A stretch of DNA of 34,724 nucleotides from a virus. The notes beneath the pieces are model-generated. The model saw nothing but the letters and a program-made list of their open reading frames with translations, did not search any database and was not told the origin of the DNA. Location: the IMG/VR virus record IMGVR_UViG_3300003690_000033, positions 1-34,724 of that record; one strand, written 5' to 3'. This document shows, piece by piece, positions 1-33,469 of the stretch (position 1 is its first letter; each line of letters opens with the position of its first letter). Made by a program: the position numbers and the translations under genes.

Positions 1-12
1 TCAAATCAGTTC

Positions 13-41
13 TTGACATATTCGCAAGCCTTCCCCATAAT
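13..41 (+). promoter_or_regulatory. sigma70-type promoter of the early cassette array
   Basis: TTGACA (13-18) is a perfect -35 box. It is followed by a 17-nt spacer and CATAAT (36-41), a 5/6 match to the -10 box. This is the best vegetative promoter seen in the window. It lies 47 nt upstream of the first small gene, so transcription would start near 48 and run through the plus-strand cassettes. The call rests on sequence match only. Confidence 0.75.
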
Positions 42-87
42 TCTCAACATCGGTGGCATAACAACCCCCAACCGACGAAGGCATAAC

Positions 88-180
88 ATGACGCAACAAT
101 TCGAAAGGTTTTTATTCTACACGATTCTTTTGACGGTAAGCGCTATCGGTACCGTCTTAATTTTCAACCCACCATTTTAG
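88..180 (+). CDS. 30-residue single-span membrane peptide
   Basis: This tiny ORF starts at ATG 88 and stops at TAG 178-180. The start is preceded by GAAGGCATAAC, a variant of the start-associated sequence used by the next genes, which is the main reason to believe it is translated. The product has a short polar N-terminus (MTQQFERF) followed by a hydrophobic stretch, roughly residues 8-26 (FLFYTILLTVSAIGTVLIF), that would span the membrane once. It is the first gene after the promoter at 13-41. Its stop codon overlaps the AGGAG of the next gene, with no hairpin between them. I do not recognise a family. It could be a host-membrane effector or simply a leader peptide. Confidence 0.5.
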   Translation: MTQQFERFLFYTILLTVSAIGTVLIFNPPF

Positions 181-194
181 GAGTGCATAACATG
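179..194 (+). repeat. start-associated sequence copy 1
   Basis: AGGAGTGCATAACATG: a Shine-Dalgarno AGGAG, a conserved GCATAAC and the ATG of the gene at 192. It is one of five copies fitting AGGAGNGCATAACATG. Confidence 0.85.
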
Positions 195-461
195 AAAGAG
201 ACAACACCAACCCCGATCCTTTTCACTGATAATGGCCAGGTCCTACGATACGCGTGGCCAGGCGGATATCCTGTCTTCTACATTGCGAACGATTGCGACG
301 CCTTGTGCCCCACTTGCGTGCAAGAAAATCTCGAATTGTGCAAAGACCCCGACGACTGCGAATTCTTCGTAACCGGCCACGCTGTCAATTGGGAAAGCGA
401 TTCCCTTTGCTGCGACCATTGTTCGAAAACCATTGAATCCGCCTATGGTGAAGCGTCCTAG
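192..461 (+). CDS. small cysteine-rich zinc-ribbon-like phage protein
   Basis: 89 residues from ATG 192, chosen over an in-frame GTG at 183 because AGGAG at 179-183 is spaced correctly for 192. Cysteines occur as C35, C39-x2-C42, C50, C56 and C73-C74-x2-C77. The CPTC and CDHC pairs suggest a zinc ribbon. The layout (GYPVFY near residue 25, NWE near 66, CDHC then ESAY at the end) matches from memory a widespread uncharacterised small protein of phages and bacteria. No function is established. It is a plausible regulator or host-takeover protein given its place directly behind the early promoter. The gene ends in TAG and is followed 8 nt later by a perfect 11-bp hairpin. Confidence 0.85.
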   Translation: MKETTPTPILFTDNGQVLRYAWPGGYPVFYIANDCDALCPTCVQENLELCKDPDDCEFFVTGHAVNWESDSLCCDHCSKTIESAYGEAS

Positions 462-469
462 CCTAGATC

Positions 470-495
470 GGACCCATGACACGCGTCATGGGTCC
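470..495 (+). promoter_or_regulatory. intergenic hairpin SL1
   Basis: GGACCCATGAC (470-480) pairs perfectly with GTCATGGGTCC (485-495) around the loop ACGC. The element is flanked by direct copies of TAGCCTAGA (459-467 and 501-509). No U-tract follows, so it is not a standard intrinsic terminator. Confidence 0.75.
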
Positions 496-518
496 TGTTG
501 TAGCCTAGAAACCAAAAC

Positions 519-534
519 AGGAGAGCATAACATG
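519..534 (+). repeat. start-associated sequence copy 2
   Basis: AGGAGAGCATAACATG, ending in the ATG of the gene at 532. It begins 23 nt after hairpin SL1. Confidence 0.85.
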
Positions 535-996
535 ACAACCAAAGTACAAATCGGAACAATCATTCACGCAACCCTTCGACCGCAAGATCTGATTCCGGCC
601 TTCATTGAGGAATTGAAACGACTGGACCGAAGAAAACTGGTCTCCATATTCGAAAACGAAGAAAGGGAAGTCGGACACCTGCTACTTGGAACCATGGGAA
701 TCGACGAAGATCACGAGTGGTGGGACTCTGAGGACTGCGCCTGCCTACTGAACGAAACCCTATTCGACGCCTTGAACGAATATGCGCCAGTCGGTTGCTA
801 CTTCGGCGCTCATTTTGGCGACGGTAGCGACTTCGGATTCTGGCCACATGAGAGCTTAGGAGACGCGGCTATGGATGATGCCGTGCTCTGTATCGGTCCA
901 AAGGACACGTGTCCAGACTACATCTTGGAAACCAACGACCATGGCAACGTGACTATGTACCGCGTTGAACTGGTCGAGGAATGGTCTTGCGTCTAG
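532..996 (+). CDS. conserved small phage protein with YFGAHFGDGSDFGFW motif
   Basis: 154 residues from ATG 532, which is served by AGGAG at 519-523; an upstream in-frame start at 433 would overlap the previous gene and the hairpin and is rejected. The N-terminal segment TLRPQDLIPAFIEEL and the motif YFGAHFGDGSDFGFW (about residues 88-102) recall an abundant hypothetical family of small phage proteins that typically reads TLRxxDLIPxFxxxL and ends near FGAHPGDGxDFGFW. The family has no assigned activity that I know of. The protein is acidic, with many Asp and Glu residues. It ends in TAG and is followed by hairpin SL2 after 8 nt, the same spacing as the preceding cassette. Confidence 0.85.
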   Translation: MTTKVQIGTIIHATLRPQDLIPAFIEELKRLDRRKLVSIFENEEREVGHLLLGTMGIDEDHEWWDSEDCACLLNETLFDALNEYAPVGCYFGAHFGDGSDFGFWPHESLGDAAMDDAVLCIGPKDTCPDYILETNDHGNVTMYRVELVEEWSCV

Positions 997-1004
997 CCTA
1001 GATC

Positions 1005-1029
1005 GGACTCACCACGCTGTGGTGGGTCC
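1005..1029 (+). promoter_or_regulatory. intergenic hairpin SL2
   Basis: GGACTCACCAC (1005-1015) pairs with GTGGTGGGTCC (1019-1029), 11 bp with one G-U pair and loop GCT. The stem sequence differs from SL1 but pairing is kept. Flanking TAGCCTAGA copies match those of SL1. Confidence 0.75.
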
Positions 1030-1051
1030 TCTTGTAGCCTAGACCATAATC

Positions 1052-1067
1052 AGGAGCGCATAACATG
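1052..1067 (+). repeat. start-associated sequence copy 3
   Basis: AGGAGCGCATAACATG, ending in the ATG at 1065. It begins 22 nt after hairpin SL2. Confidence 0.85.
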
Positions 1068-1460
1068 ACATTAGAACAATACCGGGCATTCTACCGGATT
1101 CTCACTGACGCAATTTGGAAACAATGGACCCCGGACTGCTTTCCACAATTTCTTAAACCCAAAACAGGAGTGCATAACATGAAAGCAAACAAGAAACCGG
1201 CAACCTATCGCGCAATATCGGCATCCGTAACCGTATACGCTACGTTCGACCCATCCGAAATACAGGACTGGTTTGACCAGCGAGCAGGCCAGGAAGAACC
1301 AGAGGACTGTTGGGCGCTACATGGGCGCTACGATGAATTTCTATCAGTCGTTGGTGACGATGAGACCGTGCGCGTATTCATGAACAACGGGGGCACGTTC
1401 GATGATTACGACGTGGACCATGAGGAGTATCTAACCCACTGCTTCGATGAGTTTGAGTAG
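1065..1460 (+). CDS. small acidic protein with two in-frame starts (1065 and 1179)
   Basis: The reading frame opens at ATG 1065 (131 residues) behind one full start-associated sequence. It contains a second full copy in the same frame, ending in ATG 1179 (93 residues). Reading through, that second copy is translated as TGVHNM. The sequence just upstream of it (AAACCCAAAACAGGAG) resembles the leader of the gene at 532, so 1179 looks like a genuine cassette start. The simplest reading is two former cassettes joined by loss of a stop and hairpin, or a deliberate dual-start gene. The shorter form (MKANKKPATYRAI...) is acidic, ends in a run rich in Asp, Glu, Tyr and His (HEEYLTHCFDEFE), and has no recognised domain. 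The extra N-terminal 38 residues are aromatic-rich. Confidence 0.75.
   Translation: MTLEQYRAFYRILTDAIWKQWTPDCFPQFLKPKTGVHNMKANKKPATYRAISASVTVYATFDPSEIQDWFDQRAGQEEPEDCWALHGRYDEFLSVVGDDETVRVFMNNGGTFDDYDVDHEEYLTHCFDEFE
1166..1181 (+). repeat. start-associated sequence copy 4, inside an open frame
   Basis: AGGAGTGCATAACATG, identical to copies 1 and 5. It lies within the frame opened at 1065 and has no hairpin before it. Confidence 0.85.
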
Positions 1461-1471
1461 AGACCAGGACG

Positions 1472-1498
1472 GACCCCGCAACCGTGTGTTGTGGGGTC
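1472..1498 (+). promoter_or_regulatory. intergenic hairpin SL3
   Basis: GACCCCGCAAC (1472-1482) pairs with GTTGTGGGGTC (1488-1498), 11 bp with one G-U pair and a 5-nt loop CGTGT. The stem equals that of SL5 while the loop differs. It is followed by TATCGTGG and no U-tract. Confidence 0.75.
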
Positions 1499-1537
1499 TA
1501 TCGTGGACTTAACCGCGCAATGAAAGTGAGGCTTAAC

Positions 1538-1939
1538 ATGAAAGACCAAACCAAAGCCAACGAAGCCCTACAAGGCCTTAGAGAATACTTCCGCAATGTG
1601 CGAGACACCAACCGTGAGGCGTTGACCGTTTACACCGTGTTGCGTCACGTTTCCAAGTCCGGCATGTACCGCACCTTGGACGTGTACATCATGCGAAACA
1701 ATGAACCACATCGTATCACGTGGAGTGTGTGCAAAGCGTTGGGCTATCGGTACGACCAGAGCCACGAAGCGTTAGGCACCACGGGTTGTGGCATGGATAT
1801 GGGATACGAGGTGGCGGCTTCACTATCTCGGGCGCTGTTTCATGGCACTGGCCGCGCGAAGCGTTACAGACTAAAGCACGAAGGCACCCACAAGAGCGGT
1901 GAAGCGTATCAAATACTTTGGCACCGCTGGATCGGCTAG
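1538..1939 (+). CDS. conserved phage protein (HVSKSGMYR / GCGMDMGYE family)
   Basis: 133 residues from ATG 1538, preceded by GTGAGGCTTAAC, a degenerate form of the start-associated sequence; an in-frame ATG at 1520 is a less likely alternative. Two motifs, VLRHVSKSGMYRTLDVY (about residues 31-47) and TGCGMDMGYEVAASLSRALF (about 81-100), match from memory a very common small protein of phages that usually reads HVSRSGMSRxIxVY and GCGMDMGFxxVYxLSxxLF. Its biochemical role is not established. This gene anchors the array as ordinary phage early or accessory content rather than random ORFs. It ends in TAG and is followed by SL4. Confidence 0.85.
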   Translation: MKDQTKANEALQGLREYFRNVRDTNREALTVYTVLRHVSKSGMYRTLDVYIMRNNEPHRITWSVCKALGYRYDQSHEALGTTGCGMDMGYEVAASLSRALFHGTGRAKRYRLKHEGTHKSGEAYQILWHRWIG

Positions 1940-1955
1940 GACTCGACCCTACATC

Positions 1956-1982
1956 GAGCCCATGGCCGCGGGTCATGGGCTC
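1956..1982 (+). promoter_or_regulatory. intergenic hairpin SL4
   Basis: GAGCCCATGGCC (1956-1967) pairs with GGTCATGGGCTC (1971-1982), 12 bp with one G-U pair and loop GCG. It is followed by CATTGTGGG, similar to the 3' flanks of SL3, SL5 and SL6. Confidence 0.75.
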
Positions 1983-2010
1983 CATTGTGGGAATGATTCC
2001 ACCAATTGAG

Positions 2011-2026
2011 AGGAGTGCATAACATG
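2011..2026 (+). repeat. start-associated sequence copy 5
   Basis: AGGAGTGCATAACATG, ending in the ATG at 2024. It begins 28 nt after SL4. Confidence 0.85.
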
Positions 2027-2242
2027 AGAAAATCCATCAAAATCAGAACGTTTCTGTGGCGCGGACTCTTAAGAAAACACCTGGTTCTAAGAGAAACCCA
2101 TCCTGATGGCCGTGTGTTCGTGGCCTCAGTCGGTTCGGGTGAGGGCTACACCACAGCGAAGGAAGCGACCATAGCGGCGCAACGGCTCCGTCAAATGGTG
2201 CGCGACGGTGCAACAAACTATGAGATAGCAACCGCCGAGTAG
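2024..2242 (+). CDS. small basic hypothetical protein
   Basis: 72 residues from ATG 2024, selected because a perfect start-associated sequence ends there. The N-terminus is strongly basic (MRKSIKIRTFLWRGLLRKH). It is followed by what looks like a short beta-rich segment (LVLRETHPDGRVFVASVGS) and then an alpha-helix (TAKEATIAAQRLRQMVRDG). The fold could be a small nucleic-acid-binding or ribbon-type domain, but I do not recognise a family and no function is claimed. The TAG stop is followed 11 nt later by hairpin SL5, which keeps the cassette arrangement. Confidence 0.7.
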   Translation: MRKSIKIRTFLWRGLLRKHLVLRETHPDGRVFVASVGSGEGYTTAKEATIAAQRLRQMVRDGATNYEIATAE

Positions 2243-2253
2243 AGCCTAGGACG

Positions 2254-2279
2254 GACCCCGCAACCACGGTTGTGGGGTC
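2254..2279 (+). promoter_or_regulatory. intergenic hairpin SL5
   Basis: GACCCCGCAAC (2254-2264) pairs with GTTGTGGGGTC (2269-2279), 11 bp with one G-U pair and loop CACG. It is nearly a duplicate of SL3, including the upstream GGACG and downstream TATCGTGG. Confidence 0.75.
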
Positions 2280-2280
2280 T

Positions 2281-2310
2281 ATCGTGGGATGGACTCACGG
2301 CATAACAGGA
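2281..2310 (+). repeat. 30-bp direct repeat, copy A
   Basis: This stretch is identical over 30 bases to 2774-2803. It starts ATCGTGGGATGG and ends GGCATAACAGGA. It links hairpin SL5 to the ribosome-binding site of the gene at 2319. Confidence 0.9.
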
Positions 2311-2318
2311 GTGAAATC

Positions 2319-2738
2319 ATGAATACGAAACAGGCATGCGCAGTAGATTTTCAGGGCACCTACGTAGAAAACCGATATGTCCACGCGGGTACAAGCCGGA
2401 CCCCCGATCTTGTGACCCTGTTCCTTGACCGGGCGGAAGCAAAAGCGTGGATGGTTGGCGAAAAGCGCAACCAGCAAGAGGACCACGGGCGGGACGCGAT
2501 CCAGACGATCAGCCTGGTCGAGCGCACTATCAGCATCCATGGCATGCGGATCACGGTGTACGCGGTGGTCTACCACCGACAGACCCCGGCGCGGGTAGAG
2601 CCTCCGATAATTGTACGGCCCATGGCGATCTGTATTGACCCGGATTGCCACGAGTGTGCCGATTGTATCGCGTACCGCGCGCGGATGAAGGCATTTGTCC
2701 GGGCAAAACGGGCGCTGAGATACGAGGCGAAACGCTAG
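2319..2738 (+). CDS. hypothetical protein with C-terminal cysteine cluster
   Basis: 139 residues from ATG 2319, preceded by AGGAGTGAAATC, a diverged start-associated sequence; GGCATAAC lies just upstream. The middle of the protein (about residues 67-90) contains predicted beta-strands (TISIHGMRITVYAVVYH). The C-terminal half has a cysteine cluster in CIDPDCHECADC (about residues 107-118) that could bind zinc, followed by a basic helix (AYRARMKAFVRAKRALRYEAKR region). The combination suggests a small metal-dependent nucleic-acid or protein binder, but that is inference and no family is recognised. The TAG stop is followed by SL6. Confidence 0.75.
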   Translation: MNTKQACAVDFQGTYVENRYVHAGTSRTPDLVTLFLDRAEAKAWMVGEKRNQQEDHGRDAIQTISLVERTISIHGMRITVYAVVYHRQTPARVEPPIIVRPMAICIDPDCHECADCIAYRARMKAFVRAKRALRYEAKR

Positions 2739-2746
2739 CCCAAGTC

Positions 2747-2772
2747 GAGCACGGGGCTCCGGTCCCGTGTTC
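2747..2772 (+). promoter_or_regulatory. intergenic hairpin SL6
   Basis: GAGCACGGGGC (2747-2757) pairs with GTCCCGTGTTC (2762-2772), 11 bp with two G-U pairs and loop TCCG. No U-tract follows; the 30-bp repeat copy B starts 2 nt later. Confidence 0.7.
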
Positions 2773-2773
2773 C

Positions 2774-2803
2774 ATCGTGGGATGGACTCACGGCATAACA
2801 GGA
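2774..2803 (+). repeat. 30-bp direct repeat, copy B
   Basis: Identical to 2281-2310. It lies between hairpin SL6 and the ribosome-binding site of the small membrane gene at 2814. Confidence 0.9.
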
Positions 2804-2813
2804 AGGCATAACA

Positions 2814-2921
2814 ATGAATGAGTTTACGATTCTAATTTACTTCGCCCTTTTCCCGGCCATTTTCGCCTCGGCGGTAGCTTTCGGAGCCGCTTGGTTGGAG
2901 TTCCGGCGAGGTGCGAAATGA
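2814..2921 (+). CDS. 35-residue membrane peptide
   Basis: Starts at ATG 2814 behind AGGAAGGCATAACA, another variant of the start-associated sequence, and stops at TGA 2919-2921. After a short polar N-terminus (MNEF) the product is hydrophobic from about residue 5 to 28 (TILIYFALFPAIFASAVAF and on). It ends in a basic tail (EFRRGAK), so it would sit as a single N-out/C-in helix by the positive-inside rule. Its last codons overlap the next small gene by 4 nt (ATGA). No family is recognised. The pairing with a second tiny membrane protein suggests the two act together, which is inference. Confidence 0.6.
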   Translation: MNEFTILIYFALFPAIFASAVAFGAAWLEFRRGAK

Positions 2922-3040
2922 ACACCCTATTAACATCAACCGAATTCATCGCGATCTTCATCGGTGCGATCATGCTCTGTGACCTGCCGGTGGTTATCTT
3001 TCAACACTTCAACAAAGGGGAGGATCCCCCATGCGAGTAG
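2918..3040 (+). CDS. 40-residue membrane peptide, coupled to the previous gene
   Basis: Starts at ATG 2918 inside the TGA of the preceding gene (ATGA overlap) and stops at TAG 3038-3040, 10 nt into the recombinase gene. The product has a hydrophobic segment at about residues 9-29 (EFIAIFIGAIMLCDLPVVIF) and a polar C-terminus (QHFNKGEDPPCE). The tight overlaps on both sides imply translational coupling with its neighbours. I do not recognise a family. The charge pattern is compatible with a small membrane effector, but nothing specific can be claimed. Confidence 0.55.
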   Translation: MNTLLTSTEFIAIFIGAIMLCDLPVVIFQHFNKGEDPPCE

Positions 3041-3735
3041 TAGCCTATATGCGAGCCTCTACTGAAGAGCAGAGGCTTACCAACGGGGTCCAGCTGGAGA
3101 CCATCGAGGCATGGTGCGCCGAGGGGGGTCATACCCTCTCGGCGTCGTTTACCGACACCATCTCAACACGTGAGCCATTCGAGAAACGACCGGCTCTCGG
3201 TGAGCTCCTCGCCTACGTCCATAGCAACAAAGTGGACCGGGTGGTCTACGTTCGACGTGACAGGCTGACACGCGACCCGGTTCAAGGGTTCGTTATTGAA
3301 AAGCTCCTGCGCGACGATGGCTGCGAGGTGCATGACCTTTCGGGAGTGGGCAATGGTGATTCGCCTGCCGACGAGATGATCCGAGGCATCATGGACGTGG
3401 TGAACAAGTACGAGAGGGCCGTGACCTCAATGCGAACCAAGGCAATCCTCGCAGCCAAGAAGGCACGCGGTGAGCGCATCGGTGGGGTTCCCTATGGGTA
3501 CAAGTCGGTAGGTGGCAAGTTAGTGCCCGATAATTATGAACAGTCCGTTATTGAGACGGTGTACGACCGCAAGGAATGCCTCGGCTGGACGTATCACGAG
3601 ATTAGCCGCGCACTGACTGGTGATGGATGGAAAAACCGCAGAGGCAACCCGTTTAGCAAGTCGAGCCTTTGTGAAATGATGAAAGCGTATGAAAAGCGCA
3701 TGGAGGAGGAAGTCAATGGCATATCTGCATTGTAG
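3031..3735 (+). CDS. compact serine recombinase (resolvase/invertase family)
   Basis: 234 residues; ATG 3031 follows GGGGAGG with good spacing. The N-terminal resolvase catalytic domain (about 1-145) begins VVAYMRASTEEQ, with the nucleophile Ser10 and Arg8, where most relatives have YxRVSTxxQ. DRLTRD (R78, R81) supplies the other conserved arginines. The long E helix YERAVTSMRTKAILAAKKARGER follows. Next come GGVPYGY and a short region (about 150-225) resembling the start of the recombinase DNA-binding domain. The protein is far shorter than large serine integrases (usually 450-600 residues) and lacks an obvious zinc ribbon and coiled coil. It could be a compact integrase, an invertase or a resolvase. 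Its presence supports temperate ancestry. Confidence 0.88.
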   Translation: MRVVAYMRASTEEQRLTNGVQLETIEAWCAEGGHTLSASFTDTISTREPFEKRPALGELLAYVHSNKVDRVVYVRRDRLTRDPVQGFVIEKLLRDDGCEVHDLSGVGNGDSPADEMIRGIMDVVNKYERAVTSMRTKAILAAKKARGERIGGVPYGYKSVGGKLVPDNYEQSVIETVYDRKECLGWTYHEISRALTGDGWKNRRGNPFSKSSLCEMMKAYEKRMEEEVNGISAL

Positions 3736-3874
3736 AGCGTGTGGCTGGACTGGCAATGGGGTGCGCGAGTGCCCCGACTGCGGCCCTTTGACCCTGGTGA
3801 GCGACGAGGTTGAGGACCTGGTGCCCATCGAGATCGTTGTGGTGGACACCGAGGAGGAGGTGGAAAATGAGTAG
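3716..3874 (+). CDS. 52-residue zinc-ribbon peptide
   Basis: Starts at ATG 3716 within the last codons of the recombinase (20-nt overlap), behind a strong GGAGGAGGA. The N-terminus is a compact zinc ribbon: CRAC at residues 6-9 and CPDC at about 19-22, the usual spacing for a four-cysteine zinc knuckle. The C-terminal half is very acidic (VDTEEEVENE). Coupling to the recombinase raises the possibility that it supplies the zinc-binding function missing from that protein, but this is speculation. Such small CxxC-CxxC peptides are common in phages and mostly uncharacterised. Confidence 0.7.
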   Translation: MAYLHCRACGWTGNGVRECPDCGPLTLVSDEVEDLVPIEIVVVDTEEEVENE

Positions 3875-4235
3875 CAAATACACAAAAATGCGGTGGGACT
3901 GCGCCATTGCTGGCCGGGGTGCGAGCATATTCGAGCGCCTCCACAATTCACACCTCGTGGTTTACATGCCAGATGCGCCGGATGGGACTGGCAGCGAAAT
4001 ATGCAGCCTGGAGAATGATGACATTCCCCCGCTTGATTTGGCTGAGATTGGCCTGTTGATAGCAGGTGCCCCAGAGTTACTAGCCGCGCTGGAGGAAGTG
4101 ACGGGAGACATAGAGGCGTATTGCAATGACCATGACTCAGACAGTCCCACCGATGTGACCGTCTGTCTGCCCAGGCTAAGGGCAGCTATCACTGCGGCTA
4201 GAGTGGAGCCATGGGAGGAGGCATCTAATGAATGA
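3867..4235 (+). CDS. conserved phage hypothetical protein (IAGAPELLAALEE motif)
   Basis: 122 residues from ATG 3867, which overlaps the preceding gene by 8 nt and has GAGGAGG upstream. The segment IGLLIAGAPELLAALEEVT (about residues 61-79), followed by a loop and a second helix with RLRAAITAA (about 104-112), matches from memory a widespread small phage protein whose hallmark reads NAxLIAAAPELLEALExL. Function is unknown. The N-terminal half carries a short predicted beta region (HLVVYMPD, ICSLEN). It sits between the zinc-ribbon peptide and the XRE protein in an overlapping string, which implies co-expression. Confidence 0.75.
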   Translation: MSSKYTKMRWDCAIAGRGASIFERLHNSHLVVYMPDAPDGTGSEICSLENDDIPPLDLAEIGLLIAGAPELLAALEEVTGDIEAYCNDHDSDSPTDVTVCLPRLRAAITAARVEPWEEASNE

Positions 4236-4485
4236 CTGGGCGCAAAGACTCAAGACAATCCGCACAGCGGGAGGGTTCACCCAGCCCCAGATGGCTCGAC
4301 TGTTGGGCAACGTGACCGAGTATCACCTGTGTCGTTGGGAGAGGGGGAGGTGGCCTGTCCCGGCGCACGTTCGCCTGCTTATCAAAGGCATCGAGCAGGC
4401 TGCTGCGCATGGAGGCGACGGGGTGGCTCACATTCTGGGATTCCTCGATGAGAACGTGGACACCATCGGTGATGATGGCACCTAG
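4228..4485 (+). CDS. XRE-type helix-turn-helix DNA-binding protein
   Basis: 85 residues from ATG 4228, overlapping the previous gene by 8 nt, with GGGAGGAGG upstream. Residues about 5-50 form a Cro/CI-type HTH: the RLKTIRTAGGFTQPQMARLLG segment holds helices 1-2, and VTEYHLCRWERGRWPVP contains the recognition helix and the typical W-E-R-G ending. The C-terminus is a short acidic extension with no dimerisation domain of CI type. It is probably a Cro-like or antitoxin-like transcription regulator. Targets are unknown; the divergent region at 5588-5666 and the promoter at 13-41 are candidates. It ends tail-to-tail with the minus-strand operon, both stops sharing CTAG at 4482-4485. Confidence 0.8.
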   Translation: MNDWAQRLKTIRTAGGFTQPQMARLLGNVTEYHLCRWERGRWPVPAHVRLLIKGIEQAAAHGGDGVAHILGFLDENVDTIGDDGT

Positions 4486-4862
4486 TCTGAAAGGGTAACG
4501 ATGCGCTGCGCTCGGTCCTTGGCTTCAACCAGGGCCAGCGTATGCGCCGATACCTGGCACAACCCATCTCTGATAATCGCATCCTCATCTTGCTCGCCCT
4601 TGGCGTAGACAACGCGCCACGCCTCCCCGGTGGGCGCATCTTCACGCACCTCATAGCCGAGGGTCTCCATGGTCCCCAGCATTCGGGCCAGGGTGTAGGC
4701 ACGGCTCCGAGGTACGCACCCACCAGGTAGGGGGAGTTGCACGTCATAGCTTTGCATCACGGCCTGGTAGAGATGGTACTCGGCGCTATCGCATTGATGG
4801 CGGATGGTGAGCAGCAGCTCCTCTATCTCATAGCCAGCGATGTCAGCAGGGAGTGTGACCAT
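4482..4862 (-). CDS. hypothetical protein of the minus-strand operon
   Basis: 126 residues if started at ATG 4862, 13 nt after the groES stop. A longer form from ATG 4961 (159 residues) has a better GGTGA site, but it overlaps groES by 86 nt and its extra N-terminus is a low-complexity Ser/Thr/Glu stretch, so I prefer 4862. The protein starts MVTLPADIAGYEIEELL. It has a helical middle (ILL-type helices around TIRHQCDSAEYHLYQAVM) and a C-terminal segment EVREDAPTGEAWRVVYAKG that looks like paired strands. No family is recognised. It is the last gene of a three-gene minus-strand unit with groES, so a role linked to the chaperonin or lysogeny is possible but unproven. Confidence 0.65.
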   Translation of the reverse strand: MVTLPADIAGYEIEELLLTIRHQCDSAEYHLYQAVMQSYDVQLPLPGGCVPRSRAYTLARMLGTMETLGYEVREDAPTGEAWRVVYAKGEQDEDAIIRDGLCQVSAHTLALVEAKDRAQRIVTLSD

Positions 4863-4875
4863 AGCGGTCAGCGAC

Positions 4876-5157
4876 TCAGGCTCTGAACTTTCCGATGATG
4901 TCGGCTTCGTAGAGGATGAGTTTGTCTGTGTCTCCAACGGGTTGTCCTGAGTGTCTTGCATACATCACCTTGTCGCCTTGTTGTAGGTCAAATTCACACG
5001 TTGCCCCCACGCCTAGCACGGTGCCGATGGCTGGGGGTTGGGCTTTGGTTTGTGACGGCATCACAATCTTGCCACCTGGCAGGAAGGTCTCACCATCTCT
5101 TTCTTGCATCTTCTGGAGAAGTACACGCTTTCCCAAGGGGATCACATCGCTATTCAT
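4876..5157 (-). CDS. groES: GroES-like co-chaperonin
   Basis: 93 residues from ATG 5157 (minus strand), behind GAGGCG and overlapping the upstream gene by 8 nt. It is close to the usual 95-97 residue GroES length. The order of features fits GroES: an N-terminal strand VIPLGKRVLLQK (5-16), a Gly-containing mobile-loop region with the hydrophobic tripeptide IVM (31-33, in place of IVL), GTVLGVG (45-51), GDKVMYAR (61-68) and a C-terminal LILYEADIIGKF. Known GroES proteins cap host GroEL as heptamers, and several phages encode one (T4 gp31, RB49 CocO) to fold large capsid proteins. No GroEL is encoded here, so it would use the host chaperonin. Its minus-strand position, away from the head genes, is unusual. 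Confidence 0.9.
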   Translation of the reverse strand: MNSDVIPLGKRVLLQKMQERDGETFLPGGKIVMPSQTKAQPPAIGTVLGVGATCEFDLQQGDKVMYARHSGQPVGDTDKLILYEADIIGKFRA

Positions 5158-5587
5158 TGGTCGCCTCGCTGGTGGTGTAGGGTTTCTGTTCGAGCCGGTA
5201 GACATGGCCGGCAATGGGAGGGGGCAGATCGTGTCGGTTGAAGGTGTTCAGAAGCAGGATGCGCTCCAAGATGTCGGTCGCCGCATACTCGAACAGCCAC
5301 GTCGTTGAGCATCGGATGGTGCGTGCGAGCTCCGAGAACTTCTGGGCCTTGCCGATGTCCACGTTCACCGTCTCGGTGGGGCAAGTGAACCCGGTTCCTT
5401 TGACCCTCGACTCCTGGGAGCCCAGTGTCACCTGCTCTTTGGGGATGATGGTTTCAAGAGAGCCGTTGGTCATGCTCACAATCAGGTTCGCGACTTCACC
5501 CTTGGTTACGCCGAGGCGTTGGGCTGCGCTCACTATCTTGGATGCGGTGTCCACGGTCACAGTAATTGTCCGACGAGTATTGTCCAT
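5150..5587 (-). CDS. possible tandem ribbon-helix-helix protein
   Basis: 145 residues from ATG 5587 (minus strand); an in-frame TTG at 5602 would add five residues. Two segments share a strand-helix-helix outline. The first is RTITVTVDTASKIVSAAQRL, then GVTKGEVANLIVSMTNG (residues about 5-42). The second is ETVNVDIGKAQKFSELART, then STTWLFEYAATDILERI (about 72-112). In each, a short strand with alternating hydrophobics leads into two helices, as in ribbon-helix-helix DNA-binding proteins. This could make a single-chain pseudo-dimer. It is the first gene of the minus-strand operon and faces the terminase genes across 79 nt, where a repressor would be expected to bind. The fold assignment is inference by eye. 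Confidence 0.6.
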   Translation of the reverse strand: MDNTRRTITVTVDTASKIVSAAQRLGVTKGEVANLIVSMTNGSLETIIPKEQVTLGSQESRVKGTGFTCPTETVNVDIGKAQKFSELARTIRCSTTWLFEYAATDILERILLLNTFNRHDLPPPIAGHVYRLEQKPYTTSEATNE

Positions 5588-5666
5588 ACCACTGCATCCC
5601 AAGAAACTCGGTGAATATCAAGAGGCAATACCCAAAAGCCAAAGAACTGTGTAATTTGGGGATGTT
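5588..5666. promoter_or_regulatory. divergent intergenic region between minus-strand operon and late genes
   Basis: These 79 nt separate the minus-strand operon from the start of the packaging genes, so promoters in both directions are expected. On the plus strand TGTAAT (5650-5655) is a 5/6 match to a -10 box but has no good -35 box, as might be seen in an activator-dependent late promoter. On the minus strand only weak matches are visible. No clear operator repeat is seen. Confidence 0.35.
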
Positions 5667-6032
5667 GTGACAAAACCCACGCGGAAGAAGAAAGCAGAAA
5701 CCGTGTCCGATTTGGCGGTTCCTGGTGCCCAGACACTGGAGTGTTTGGTCATGCGAGCGGCTACCGACGAGGACGTTGGCGCAGTCTATGGTGGTCTCGC
5801 CGTGTTGTCACTGCTCGATGAGAGTGCAGCCAAAGAGTTCGCCACGCAGCCCGATGGCGAGCTGGACCTCGACCTATACAGCAAACTGCTCGACATCGTT
5901 GAGAAGAAGCAACGCATCCGAATGAAGTCAGCGCAGATGATCCACAAGGCATCCGAGGTCAAGCAAGATAGCCAATACGTCGTTGCACCGGAGAAGTGGA
6001 CCGATGCAGTAGAAGCGCACGAGTTGCAGTAA
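5667..6032 (+). CDS. probable terminase small subunit
   Basis: 121 residues from GTG 5667, with TTGGGGA upstream. It lies directly before the large terminase gene and overlaps it by one base (TAATG). The N-terminus is basic and disordered (TKPTRKKKAE). The middle is helical (VYGGLAVLSLLDESAAKEF), followed by a long charged helix (YSKLLDIVEKKQRIRMKSAQMIHKAS, residues about 72-97) of the kind that forms the oligomerisation core of small terminases. Small terminases recognise the packaging site on concatemeric DNA and stimulate the large subunit. The call rests on position, size and helix content, because the sequence itself is not one I recognise. Confidence 0.65.
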   Translation: MTKPTRKKKAETVSDLAVPGAQTLECLVMRAATDEDVGAVYGGLAVLSLLDESAAKEFATQPDGELDLDLYSKLLDIVEKKQRIRMKSAQMIHKASEVKQDSQYVVAPEKWTDAVEAHELQ

Positions 6033-7855
6033 TGGATAAGGTCGATAGATACATCCAATTATGCAGAGATGACGTTCGGTTCTGCTTCAAAAACGAGTTC
6101 AAGATCCGGTCTTTTGACAGAGACACCATGCGCTGGAAGCTGGTGCCGTTTGCCCTCAACGATGAGCAAGAACACCTGCTGCAAGTCATCGAGAGGCAGA
6201 TGAAAGACAGGGGCTTTGTTCGCATCATCATAGACAAGGCCCGAAAGCTGGGGATGAGCACGTTTATCCAGGCTCTCAAGATGCACACCTGTATGTTCAA
6301 TCCCCAGAGCCACGCCCTGACGGTGGCGCACGAGGAGTCTGCCACCCGTGAGCTCTTTAGAATTGGCAAGCGCATCGCAGAGAACATTGACGAGAGGGTG
6401 GCGTCTGGTCTAAAGAACAAGGCCAAGGGCAACCTCCTTGAGTGGCGCAATGGCTCGCGTGCAGAGTGTCAAACTCAGGGGGGAAGCCCTGACTCTGAGC
6501 GTGGCTCCACCCCAAACTTCCTTCATATGTCAGAGCTTCCATCGTGGGAGTCCAGCCGTCGTACGACATCAGCCGCCGACGTGGCGCAGGCGCTGCTCAA
6601 CGCGGTGCCCAACGAGAAGTCCACCATTGTGATCATCGAATCCACGGCCATGGGGATGGGCAACCTGTTCTATGAGATATGGAACAGGGCAATCAAGGGC
6701 GCCACTGGCAACCTATTCGAACCAGTCTTTTATTCTTGGACCGGGAGGGCTCAGTATTCTGTACCAACTGGAGACGTCGAAACCGACACACATGAACTCT
6801 GGTTAGACGGCCAAATGCGCCAAGCTCAAGCGGCGGGAGACATCACGGGGTTTCATTCCATCGCGAACGAGCTAGGTTATAGCGAGTTGCAACGCAAAAG
6901 AGCCCTAGAGTACGAGCTGAGCCCTCCACAGGTCCGTTTCTGGCAGCAGACCTTGGTAAACCAGTGCGCCGATGACCAGGACAGGTTTGATCAGGAGTGG
7001 CCGGTCAGCTGGGAGGTGTCGTTTGTTTCCTCGGGGCGCGGGGTATTCTCCGGCGCCCTTATCCAGAGGCGACTCGACGAGCTCAAGAACTTCAAGATGA
7101 AGGCAGAGGGCTCTCTCATCGAGGACAAGGGTAGCGTCAAGGCCACCAAAGATGGCGGCACTTGGCAGATATACGAATGGCCCCAGGACTCTCACACCTA
7201 CATCGTATCAGCCGACGCTGCCGGTGGTGGTCGAAGTAAAGACGACGACTACGCCTGCATCCAGGTATTCGACCGATGCACCGAGCATCAGGTGGCTGAG
7301 TTTTATGACAAGGTGCCGCCCGATAGGCTGGCCGACGAGATGGCTAAGGCATCGAAACTATACAACAACGCACTCGTAGCACCCGAGTCCAATGGGCCGG
7401 GGCTTGTGACCATCCACCAGATAATGACAAGCCACCCGAACGTGCTCATCTATCGACGCTTCGCTCAACCAGGACAGGTAGCTGGTAGCGAGACAAAGCT
7501 GCTGGGCTATTCAACCAACGTCAAGACGCGGCACTATCTGTTCGGACAGTTCGAATCGGCGGTGAGACGAGAGGAAATAAAGATTTTCTCCAAGCGTCTG
7601 TTGGGAGAGATGCTCACACTGATTCGCTCCAAGGGCACAGGAAGGCCCGAAGCGTCACCCGGTTATCACGACGATGCGTGCGTAGCATTCGCCATCGCCA
7701 TGGATGTTAGCCGAATACAAGCCGATCAGGGCGTACCGGCTGTTCGCGAAGCAGCGAAGGTAGACCCTAGCATCTACAGCGGCTTGGTACAGCCCTACAG
7801 CAATGTAGCGGCACCAGCAACGGACTTCCCCGAGGGAGATAGCTCATGGTTCTAG
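6032..7855 (+). CDS. terL: terminase large subunit (packaging ATPase and nuclease)
   Basis: 607 residues from ATG 6032 (TAATG junction). An earlier in-frame start at 5996 is rejected because it overlaps the small terminase and lacks support. The N-terminal ATPase domain has a deviant Walker A, DKARKLGMST (68-77), and a Walker B, STIVIIE (197-203), with catalytic Glu203. The C-terminal RNase-H-like nuclease shows YIVSADAAGGG (390-400, Asp395), then KDDDYAC (about 403-409), and the closing acidic motif YHDDACVAFAIAM (545-557). This is the full domain set of a headful- or cos-type large terminase that pumps DNA through the portal. Length is within the usual 450-650 residues. Confidence 0.93.
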   Translation: MDKVDRYIQLCRDDVRFCFKNEFKIRSFDRDTMRWKLVPFALNDEQEHLLQVIERQMKDRGFVRIIIDKARKLGMSTFIQALKMHTCMFNPQSHALTVAHEESATRELFRIGKRIAENIDERVASGLKNKAKGNLLEWRNGSRAECQTQGGSPDSERGSTPNFLHMSELPSWESSRRTTSAADVAQALLNAVPNEKSTIVIIESTAMGMGNLFYEIWNRAIKGATGNLFEPVFYSWTGRAQYSVPTGDVETDTHELWLDGQMRQAQAAGDITGFHSIANELGYSELQRKRALEYELSPPQVRFWQQTLVNQCADDQDRFDQEWPVSWEVSFVSSGRGVFSGALIQRRLDELKNFKMKAEGSLIEDKGSVKATKDGGTWQIYEWPQDSHTYIVSADAAGGGRSKDDDYACIQVFDRCTEHQVAEFYDKVPPDRLADEMAKASKLYNNALVAPESNGPGLVTIHQIMTSHPNVLIYRRFAQPGQVAGSETKLLGYSTNVKTRHYLFGQFESAVRREEIKIFSKRLLGEMLTLIRSKGTGRPEASPGYHDDACVAFAIAMDVSRIQADQGVPAVREAAKVDPSIYSGLVQPYSNVAAPATDFPEGDSSWF

Positions 7856-18411: not shown

Positions 18412-19881
18412 GTAGCAAAAACAGAAACACCTGTCTCACAGTTCAACTTGCCCAAGGGTGCCCCTTTCGTCCCAACGAAGGTTCCCAAGCTCCCGAAGGC
18501 AACGGGTCAAAAGAGGCTTGAGACAACGCAGGACCCGCGCCAGGTGGGCGTGCAAACTCCCCTTGAGCGAGCAGCAGCCGTCAGGCAGGCGGCACCGGCT
18601 ACGCTCCCCACATCAACGATGGCAGCCCCAACCCTCCCCGGCGTTGGGACGGTGGCAACGCAGCTTCCCTATGTTCCAAGCGCACCGGCCCCAGAGTTTG
18701 CGGCGATAGGGTATGGGGGCTCAGGGGGAGATGCCCCACCCCCGGAGGAGCAGACCATAACAGAGCCACCCGAGGACAAATACTACGAGGAGGCCAACGT
18801 CACAAAAGAGATGCTGGCGCCGCTCCTCGAGGAAAAGGGATATACCCTTGGCGAGCAAGATAACCTGGGGTCATACCCAATACTCGATGCAGACGGAAAC
18901 ATTGTTGGGTACTACTACAAGCACGAAACTGGCCCTTGGACTGTCGCATGGGAAGAGAGCGGCGCGCTGGTGGACAAGCCCCCAGACGCAGGGAAATATT
19001 CATATCAGGACTCTAGCGGGAATTGGGTTGACCCCACCGACACCGAGGCGCCTGGGTACAACCCCGCAACGGACCCGACGAGCCCAGAGTACAACCCGTA
19101 CCTGAAAGATTATCAAACAGGCGTCAGCCTTTTCGAGACATCCGGCGATGAGGCGGTCCAGCAAAAGGTTGATGCAATGGACGCCGAGGCATCCATCGCC
19201 GCATCGGCAGCCAAACGGGCGGCACAGGCTCGCTACGGCGCGTCTGGTTTCGAGGGCTCAGCCCAGTACATGCAGGAGATGGGTTCGATTGACCAGCAGA
19301 TTTGGGCGGCGAACCAAACAGCCAAGGCCGACCTGTATATGGAAAAATACAAGGCCGACCGAGAAGAGGATATTGAACTGCTGCGCCAGCAAATGGAGTT
19401 TGCAACCGGTGAAGAAAAGGCGAAGCTCCAAACAGAGCTAACCCAGATGATGCTGGACCGGCAAAAAGAAGATGCCCTCCTCACGCAATTCTGGAACGCG
19501 CCGCAATCGCTGATGGACACATTTGGAGCAGACGCATTCGACGAAACGGCATTCCAAGACTTCCAGACCGACATGGCAGATGCGTTCGCAACGGGCGACG
19601 ACGCAGCGGTCATGAAGGTCATGGCAAATGTTAAATACGCCGACGGCAAACTGTACTACGAAACCGAATGGGTGAATCCAAAAGACGTATGGTCCAAAGA
19701 GCAGTGGGCTGACCATTCCACTATGTTCATGGATAACGGATGGAACAATTACGCCGACATTGGCGCAGTTCGGCAATGGATGATTCAAAACGGTATGGAC
19801 CCACAGTATGCAGCCGATATGATCACGGCAATGAACCAAATGGGAACGTCCCAACAGGCTCAAACAGAATATCCTATTTGA
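18409..19881 (+). CDS. putative internal virion protein
   Basis: 490 residues from ATG 18409, served by late start sequence L1. The first 130 residues are Pro/Ala/Thr-rich and probably disordered (PKVPKLPKATGQ; APTLPGVGTVATQLP). A DPTDTEAPGYNPATDPTSPE segment near residue 210 is another linker. Residues about 245-360 form long Ala/Gln/Glu helices (VDAMDAEASIAASAAKRAAQ; LLRQQMEFATGEEKAKLQTE). Helical, coiled, low-complexity proteins placed after the tail hub genes of short-tailed phages are usually internal/ejection proteins. A fold-specific identification is not possible by eye. Confidence 0.65.
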   Translation: MVAKTETPVSQFNLPKGAPFVPTKVPKLPKATGQKRLETTQDPRQVGVQTPLERAAAVRQAAPATLPTSTMAAPTLPGVGTVATQLPYVPSAPAPEFAAIGYGGSGGDAPPPEEQTITEPPEDKYYEEANVTKEMLAPLLEEKGYTLGEQDNLGSYPILDADGNIVGYYYKHETGPWTVAWEESGALVDKPPDAGKYSYQDSSGNWVDPTDTEAPGYNPATDPTSPEYNPYLKDYQTGVSLFETSGDEAVQQKVDAMDAEASIAASAAKRAAQARYGASGFEGSAQYMQEMGSIDQQIWAANQTAKADLYMEKYKADREEDIELLRQQMEFATGEEKAKLQTELTQMMLDRQKEDALLTQFWNAPQSLMDTFGADAFDETAFQDFQTDMADAFATGDDAAVMKVMANVKYADGKLYYETEWVNPKDVWSKEQWADHSTMFMDNGWNNYADIGAVRQWMIQNGMDPQYAADMITAMNQMGTSQQAQTEYPI

Positions 19882-33430: not shown

Positions 33431-33455
33431 CACCCCACCGGGGCCGCGATAGGGT
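33427..33455 (+). promoter_or_regulatory. candidate promoter before the recombination module
   Basis: TTGACA (33427-33432) is a perfect -35 box; after a 17-nt spacer, TAGGGT (33450-33455) is a weak 3/6 -10 box. It lies in the 39-nt gap before the nuclease gene, where a new transcription unit could begin. The weak -10 makes it tentative. Confidence 0.4.
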
Positions 33456-33467
33456 TCGGACGAACCC
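33452..33467 (+). promoter_or_regulatory. hairpin covering the nuclease ribosome-binding region
   Basis: GGGTTC (33452-33457) pairs with GAACCC (33462-33467) around GGAC; the stem ends 2 nt before ATG 33470. No free Shine-Dalgarno sequence is visible between it and the start, so it may modulate translation. It is not part of the SL1-SL6 family. Confidence 0.45.
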
Positions 33468-33469
33468 CG

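Follow-up and report, generated by a model that had tools for sequence, protein, structure and literature searches.

Structured intergenic RNA elements repeated among the early genes of two phages and their likeness to the T7 processing sites

The window analyzed here, a stretch of 34,724 nucleotides (nt) that makes up positions 1 to 34,724 of the IMG/VR virus record IMGVR_UViG_3300003690_000033, carries at its left end a cluster of small early genes with six intergenic hairpins, SL1 to SL6. Together with three copies from a second phage contig (L103), these elements are one RNA family, the structure of which is under selection on the mRNA strand. With about even confidence, we read them as intergenic mRNA-processing and 3'-end-protecting sites that would work like the R sites of phage T7.

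A preliminary description of this DNA had listed six hairpins with stems of 11 to 12 bp, and all were found again by a stem scan, on the plus strand. Element 1 (SL1, 459..508) has its covariance model core at 462-504 and its upper hairpin at 470-495 (11 bp, loop of 4 nt), below which come a 4/5 internal loop, a middle stem CTA/TAG, a C-C mismatch and an outer stem where the UAG stop pairs with CUA. Element 2 (SL2, 994..1043; core 997-1038; upper hairpin 1005-1029, 11 bp, loop of 3 nt) has the same internal loop size, middle stem and mismatch, and an outer stem that takes in the stop codon. For element 3 (SL3, 1458..1511; core 1464-1507; upper hairpin 1471-1499, 12 bp, loop of 5 nt), the bottom G-U pair decides whether the internal loop is 4/4 or 5/5, and the middle stem CCA/TGG is followed by an A-A mismatch and 3 bp of outer stem. 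Element 4 (SL4, 1937..2001; core 1948-1991; upper hairpin 1956-1982, 12 bp, loop of 3 nt) has CCTA/TGGG as its middle stem, and element 6 (SL6, 2736..2792; core 2739-2781; upper hairpin 2747-2772, 11 bp, loop of 4 nt) has CCCA/TGGG. Element 5 (SL5, 2240..2298) has its core at 2246-2288, or 2245-2288 with the full middle stem, and an upper hairpin at 2253-2280 (12 bp, loop of 4 nt). The upper hairpins alone reach -18.0 to -21.7 kcal/mol, and the 42- to 44-nt cores have minimum-free-energy z-scores of -3.8 to -5.9.

The placement of these elements is regular. All six gaps of 68 to 84 nt in the left-end cluster, that is, every gap there of more than 65 nt, hold one hairpin each, and the only remaining gaps of at least 30 nt in the gene list of the window are 5603-5666 and 33431-33469. 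From the TAG stop to the hairpin there are 8, 8, 10, 16, 10 and 8 nt in order from SL1 to SL6, within the 8 to 16 nt first reported, and the next Shine-Dalgarno (SD) sequence follows after 22 to 28 nt, close to the 22 to 29 nt previously given. The lack of a U-tract was also borne out, since a run of four or more T is absent from all six gaps. SL3 (1464-1507) and SL5 (2245-2288) have near-identical stems among unlike neighboring genes, which suggests that the element has been copied from gap to gap and leaves about five independent stems in the window.

Three further copies are all in L103, a contig found by a terminase scan whose terminase is 70% identical to that of the window. They lie in the matching region, ahead of the resolvase gene, at 1916, 2910 (hairpin a, L103a) and 3295, in gaps of 68, 116 and 85 nt behind the stops TAG, TAA and TAA; the other two are called L103b and L103c. 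The amber stop that the preliminary description had made part of the element thus holds for the window (TAG in 6/6) and is not conserved in L103. Gaps of up to 24 nt in L103 are without the element, and a 66-nt gap before 4066 may contain a small open reading frame (ORF). No convincing similarity links the genes next to the L103 copies with those next to the window copies, from which we conclude that the element travels with the gap and belongs to no gene. Hairpin a stays right behind its stop while the distance to the next start increases to 81 nt, so that it follows the end of the upstream gene and not the start of the next one. Between this hairpin and the next start is a promoter-like site, TTGACA-17-TATGGT. 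A 3' tail, GATGGACTCACG, is common to SL5 (2288-2300), SL6 (2781-2793) and two of the L103 copies (2944-2956 and 3329-3341, the last reading GATAGACTCAGG); these tails lie outside the paired core.

The hairpins described initially are real, and the element is larger than they are. Common to all nine copies are an upper stem of 11 to 12 bp, an internal loop of 4/5 (or 4/4 to 5/5) with RRWC or similar on the 5' side and YRUYG or similar on the 3' side, and a two-sided middle stem of 3 to 4 bp, CYA/TRG or CYYA/TRGG. The upper stem varies, while the two parts below it are conserved. Several copies continue beyond the middle stem with a 1x1 mismatch and an outer stem, and in L103c, as in SL1 and SL2, the UAG stop itself is paired there past a C-C mismatch.

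We aligned the nine copies with MAFFT, drew the structure and counted pairs. Pairing was kept in 94.8% of the pair cells, and 8 of the 15 pairs had changed on both sides (20 cells, where shuffles averaged 5.6), while sliding the partner strand by 1 to 3 columns left at most 48.5% still paired; these controls overstate significance, because the structure came from the very sequences tested and SL3 nearly duplicates SL5. The middle stem covaries as well (CTA/TAG, CCA/TGG, CCCA/TGGG), and the counts for the lower helix are understated owing to a one-column shift of the lower stem by MAFFT in SL3, SL5 and L103a. The stem covariation first seen in the window copies is therefore upheld with the three L103 copies added. 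Independently of any alignment, the 103 stem pairs divide into 92 Watson-Crick, 11 G-U and 0 A-C. Since stem finding had allowed G-U, the scan was repeated with A-C allowed instead, and SL1, a stem free of wobbles, was then the only window element recovered. A structure in DNA or in the antisense strand would show both wobbles equally, so the asymmetry indicates selection on the sense-strand RNA. A covariance model of the nine copies scored them at 42 to 58 bits on the sense strand and 15 to 33 on the antisense strand; since the same copies went into building it, the scores are informative only in their contrast between strands.

The layout of the elements is close to that of the early RNase III sites of T7, which also lie in the intergenic gaps of an early polycistronic mRNA and have upper stems of 8 to 12 bp with small loops. 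We defined a layout rule (upper stem of at least 9 bp, internal loop of 4-5 by 4-5, middle stem of at least 3 bp), for which R1.1 was the only match in T7 5600-6600, with an upper stem of 10, a loop of 4, a 4/5 internal loop, a middle stem of 3, a 1x1 mismatch and an outer stem of 6. A looser rule applied to T7 700-6600 found five intergenic places plus one further intergenic and two coding matches. The five places fit the known R sites of T7 (R0.3, R0.5, R1, R1.1 and R1.3). The 4/5 internal loop of SL1, SL2, SL4 and SL6, the 3-bp middle stem, the 1x1 mismatch and the outer stem all have counterparts in R1.1, and several T7 copies likewise share their internal-loop sequence while their upper stems vary. 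The window elements have the intergenic position in a putative multigene early transcription unit and the irregular hairpin of a T7-type site (upper stem of about 9 to 12 bp, internal loop, lower stem, no U-tract), with the outer stem in part of the set. They differ from the T7 sites in internal-loop sequence, have no detectable relatedness to them, belong to an unrelated phage and have a shorter lower stem in several copies. None of the Rfam families matched. In published work, R1.1 lies between genes 1.0 and 1.1 and is described with an internal loop that is asymmetric, 4/5 (PMC6121014), and in Streptomyces the hairpin between rpsO and pnp is cut by RNase III at an internal loop of 4/4 (PMC10126417). 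The S. coelicolor site resembles ours in being an intergenic hairpin with such a loop, whereas it is a single chromosomal site and no repeated phage element.

Under the processing reading, transcription would start upstream and run through all genes of the cluster, as the single upstream promoter-like site suggests. Each element would fold into a long irregular helix of upper stem, internal loop, middle stem and, often, mismatch and outer stem. Cleavage would then fall within or next to the internal loop, with the 3' strand (YRUYG) as the probable target, judging from R1.1, and the enzyme, a double-strand endonuclease, would most likely be the host RNase III. The upstream mRNA would keep a stable 3' hairpin resisting exonucleases, and the downstream mRNA would gain a new short 5' leader with its SD start sequence. 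The absence of a U-tract, the 22 to 28 nt from hairpin to SD and the one good promoter upstream speak for this reading. A bolder version, to which we give low credence, is a gene-independent cassette of RNA element plus AGGAGYGCA start, read by a dedicated phage or host factor and yielding separately controlled single-gene mRNAs from a polycistronic early transcript, in an uncultured lineage outside the T7 group. Should the elements prove to be processing sites, whether or not of the bolder kind, T7's way of cleaving its early transcript at recurrent intergenic hairpins with a conserved internal loop would have emerged, or survived, in a lineage of tailed phages unrelated to it, such sites would be recognizable from sequence alone, and the window would offer a directly testable example of decoupled small early gene expression outside the T7 group.

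Several points weigh against processing. Cleavage and transcripts of the window elements are predictions. The lower paired part is short in SL5, SL6 and L103b, and the extended region of SL6 and L103b favors a different small hairpin, making the lower part less certain in those copies. The layout rule matched 6/6 copies and also eight places inside genes in the window (0 to 6 places in each shuffle), so that layout alone is not diagnostic. The family was found in only two genomes. An actinobacterial host is suggested by distant matches only: the capsid and one early protein of the window have distant relatives mostly in actinobacteriophages, and those of the early protein include Caulobacter phages too.

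The main rival, which we consider doubtful, is that the elements are U-less ("I-shaped") intrinsic or partial terminators grading expression along the operon. They lack the U-tract of a canonical terminator, and their position, 8 to 17 nt past stop codons, agrees with the mycobacterial I-shaped terminators (PMC12288462); hairpins that lack a U-tract and lie no farther than 50 bp from a stop have been described as common terminators in mycobacteria (PMC12288462), although U-less termination is disputed, judging by titles cited in the same paper (PMC12288462). The promoter-like site behind hairpin a in L103 would also suit a terminator. I-shaped terminators are, however, defined by termination, and six of them in a row, 22 to 28 nt before an SD in a chain of genes with no good promoter between, would silence those genes. 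Neither the conserved internal loop nor the covarying middle stem would be needed for termination, and T-tailed hairpins that look like ordinary terminators exist elsewhere in the relatives, downstream of the resolvase gene and before converging genes (L103 5172-5201 and, in another related contig, L104 1194).

Somewhat less likely again is a form of the regulator landing site first suggested: the elements would bind a phage RNA-binding protein or other regulator, bringing the translation or stability of the early genes into one regulon. Much of the upper stem is indeed less conserved than the internal loop (RRWC/YRUYG), and the element accompanies the common start sequence AGGAGYGCA independently of the gene; against this, no candidate protein was identified in a genome of which part is missing, and hairpin a of L103 holds to the stop and not to the start. 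Passive hairpins that stabilize 3' ends made by other nucleases or Rho, with no dedicated cleavage, would explain the stable stems directly past each stop and leave the conserved internal loop and middle stem unexplained; we regard this as improbable. We give very little weight to inverted repeats acting in DNA (ESAS-like operators, sites for protein dimers, recombination boundaries) or to a selfish repeat like the repetitive extragenic palindromes. Homogenized copies (the SL3/SL5 stems, the SL5/SL6 tail) fit cassette copying by recombination, but a DNA site would keep its sequence over its pairing, contrary to the variable stems and the excess of G-U over A-C, and all copies are on one strand and in gaps only.

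Of the initial interpretation, the claim that RNA structure is under selection and the idea of processing sites or mRNA stabilizers were supported by the covariation, the G-U/A-C asymmetry, the internal loop and the T7 layout, while the parallel with the extended start-associated sequences (ESAS) of cluster K mycobacteriophages found no support. As in the start-associated sequence (SAS) system, an intergenic inverted repeat lies just upstream of a repeated start sequence at nonstructural genes. The ESAS of cluster K, however, have 17-bp arms with a near-constant consensus, in which changes generally do not support base-pairing (PMC3203893), in contrast to the window stems, which vary and keep pairing. 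The SAS is GGGATAGGAGCCC (PMC3203893), unlike the AGGAGYGCA of the window and L103, and it gave 9 matches (up to 3 mismatches) where 11.7 were expected by chance; the starts of the cluster had none. ESAS membership was rejected. Amber suppression or read-through was dropped, as the frame past the SL1 stop closes quickly and L103 uses TAA.

The start sequences of the window (AGGAGNGCATAACATG) stand ahead of chained small early genes. On the plus strand, AGGAGTGCATAACATG is at 179-194, 519-534, 1052-1067, 1166-1181 and 2011-2026, counts reached by no shuffle, and variants of it are at 75-90 and 2800-2815. In L103, AGGAGYGCA is found at the starts 688, 902, 1008, 1962, 2371, 3004, 3350 and 4054, and its occurrence before early genes in both phages is well above chance. 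The copies at 1052 and 1166 precede two in-frame ATGs (1065 and 1179) of the ORF 1065-1460, for which two protein forms are therefore possible.

Scans of viral and genome collections gave no third genome with the element. A start-sequence scan of viral contigs returned 92 stretches, none with clustered copies, which were taken as chance. In terminase-alignment scans, the nearest new contigs were L105 and L106, with no element by hairpin scan and no model match; L105 lacks the early region. No element was found in genome contigs. L183 matches the flank pattern by sequence and has no such hairpin, and matches of 23 to 31 bits in L191 (7559-7602) and L192/L193, pattern-selected from whole collections and inside or antisense to an ORF, were attributed to chance. 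The known phages Shocker, Commonplace and Dalilpop had no convincing copy, the one weak match, in Dalilpop, scoring 17.7 bits. In L101, a contig that encodes a relative of the gene at 532, short A+T-rich hairpins such as CCAGAAA-AAG-TTTCTGG precede starts (183-220, 1026-1065, 1785-1815 and 2612-2640); they are unlike those of the window, and their arrangement is possibly analogous. L106 has, at 18516 on the reverse complement, a stable hairpin, then another small one, then GGAGG ahead of a start.

The window itself is probably a fragment, with part of the phage genome missing, and no close phage records were found for it by DNA. At the head of the gene cluster, the promoter-like site TTGACA-17-CATAAT (13..41, plus strand, 11/12) is the sole plus-strand match above 9/12; promoter-like matches in 1-5700 numbered 4, against 3.8 in shuffles, and are individually weak. 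The small early genes flanking the elements, all on the plus strand, are 192-461, 532-996, 1065 (or 1179)-1460, 1538-1939, 2024-2242 and 2319-2738. Those tested had no Pfam match, and three early genes had PHROG matches. One of these PHROGs, matched by the 89-amino-acid protein of 192-461, is named "DNA ligase," a label unlikely at such a length and probably a misnomer.

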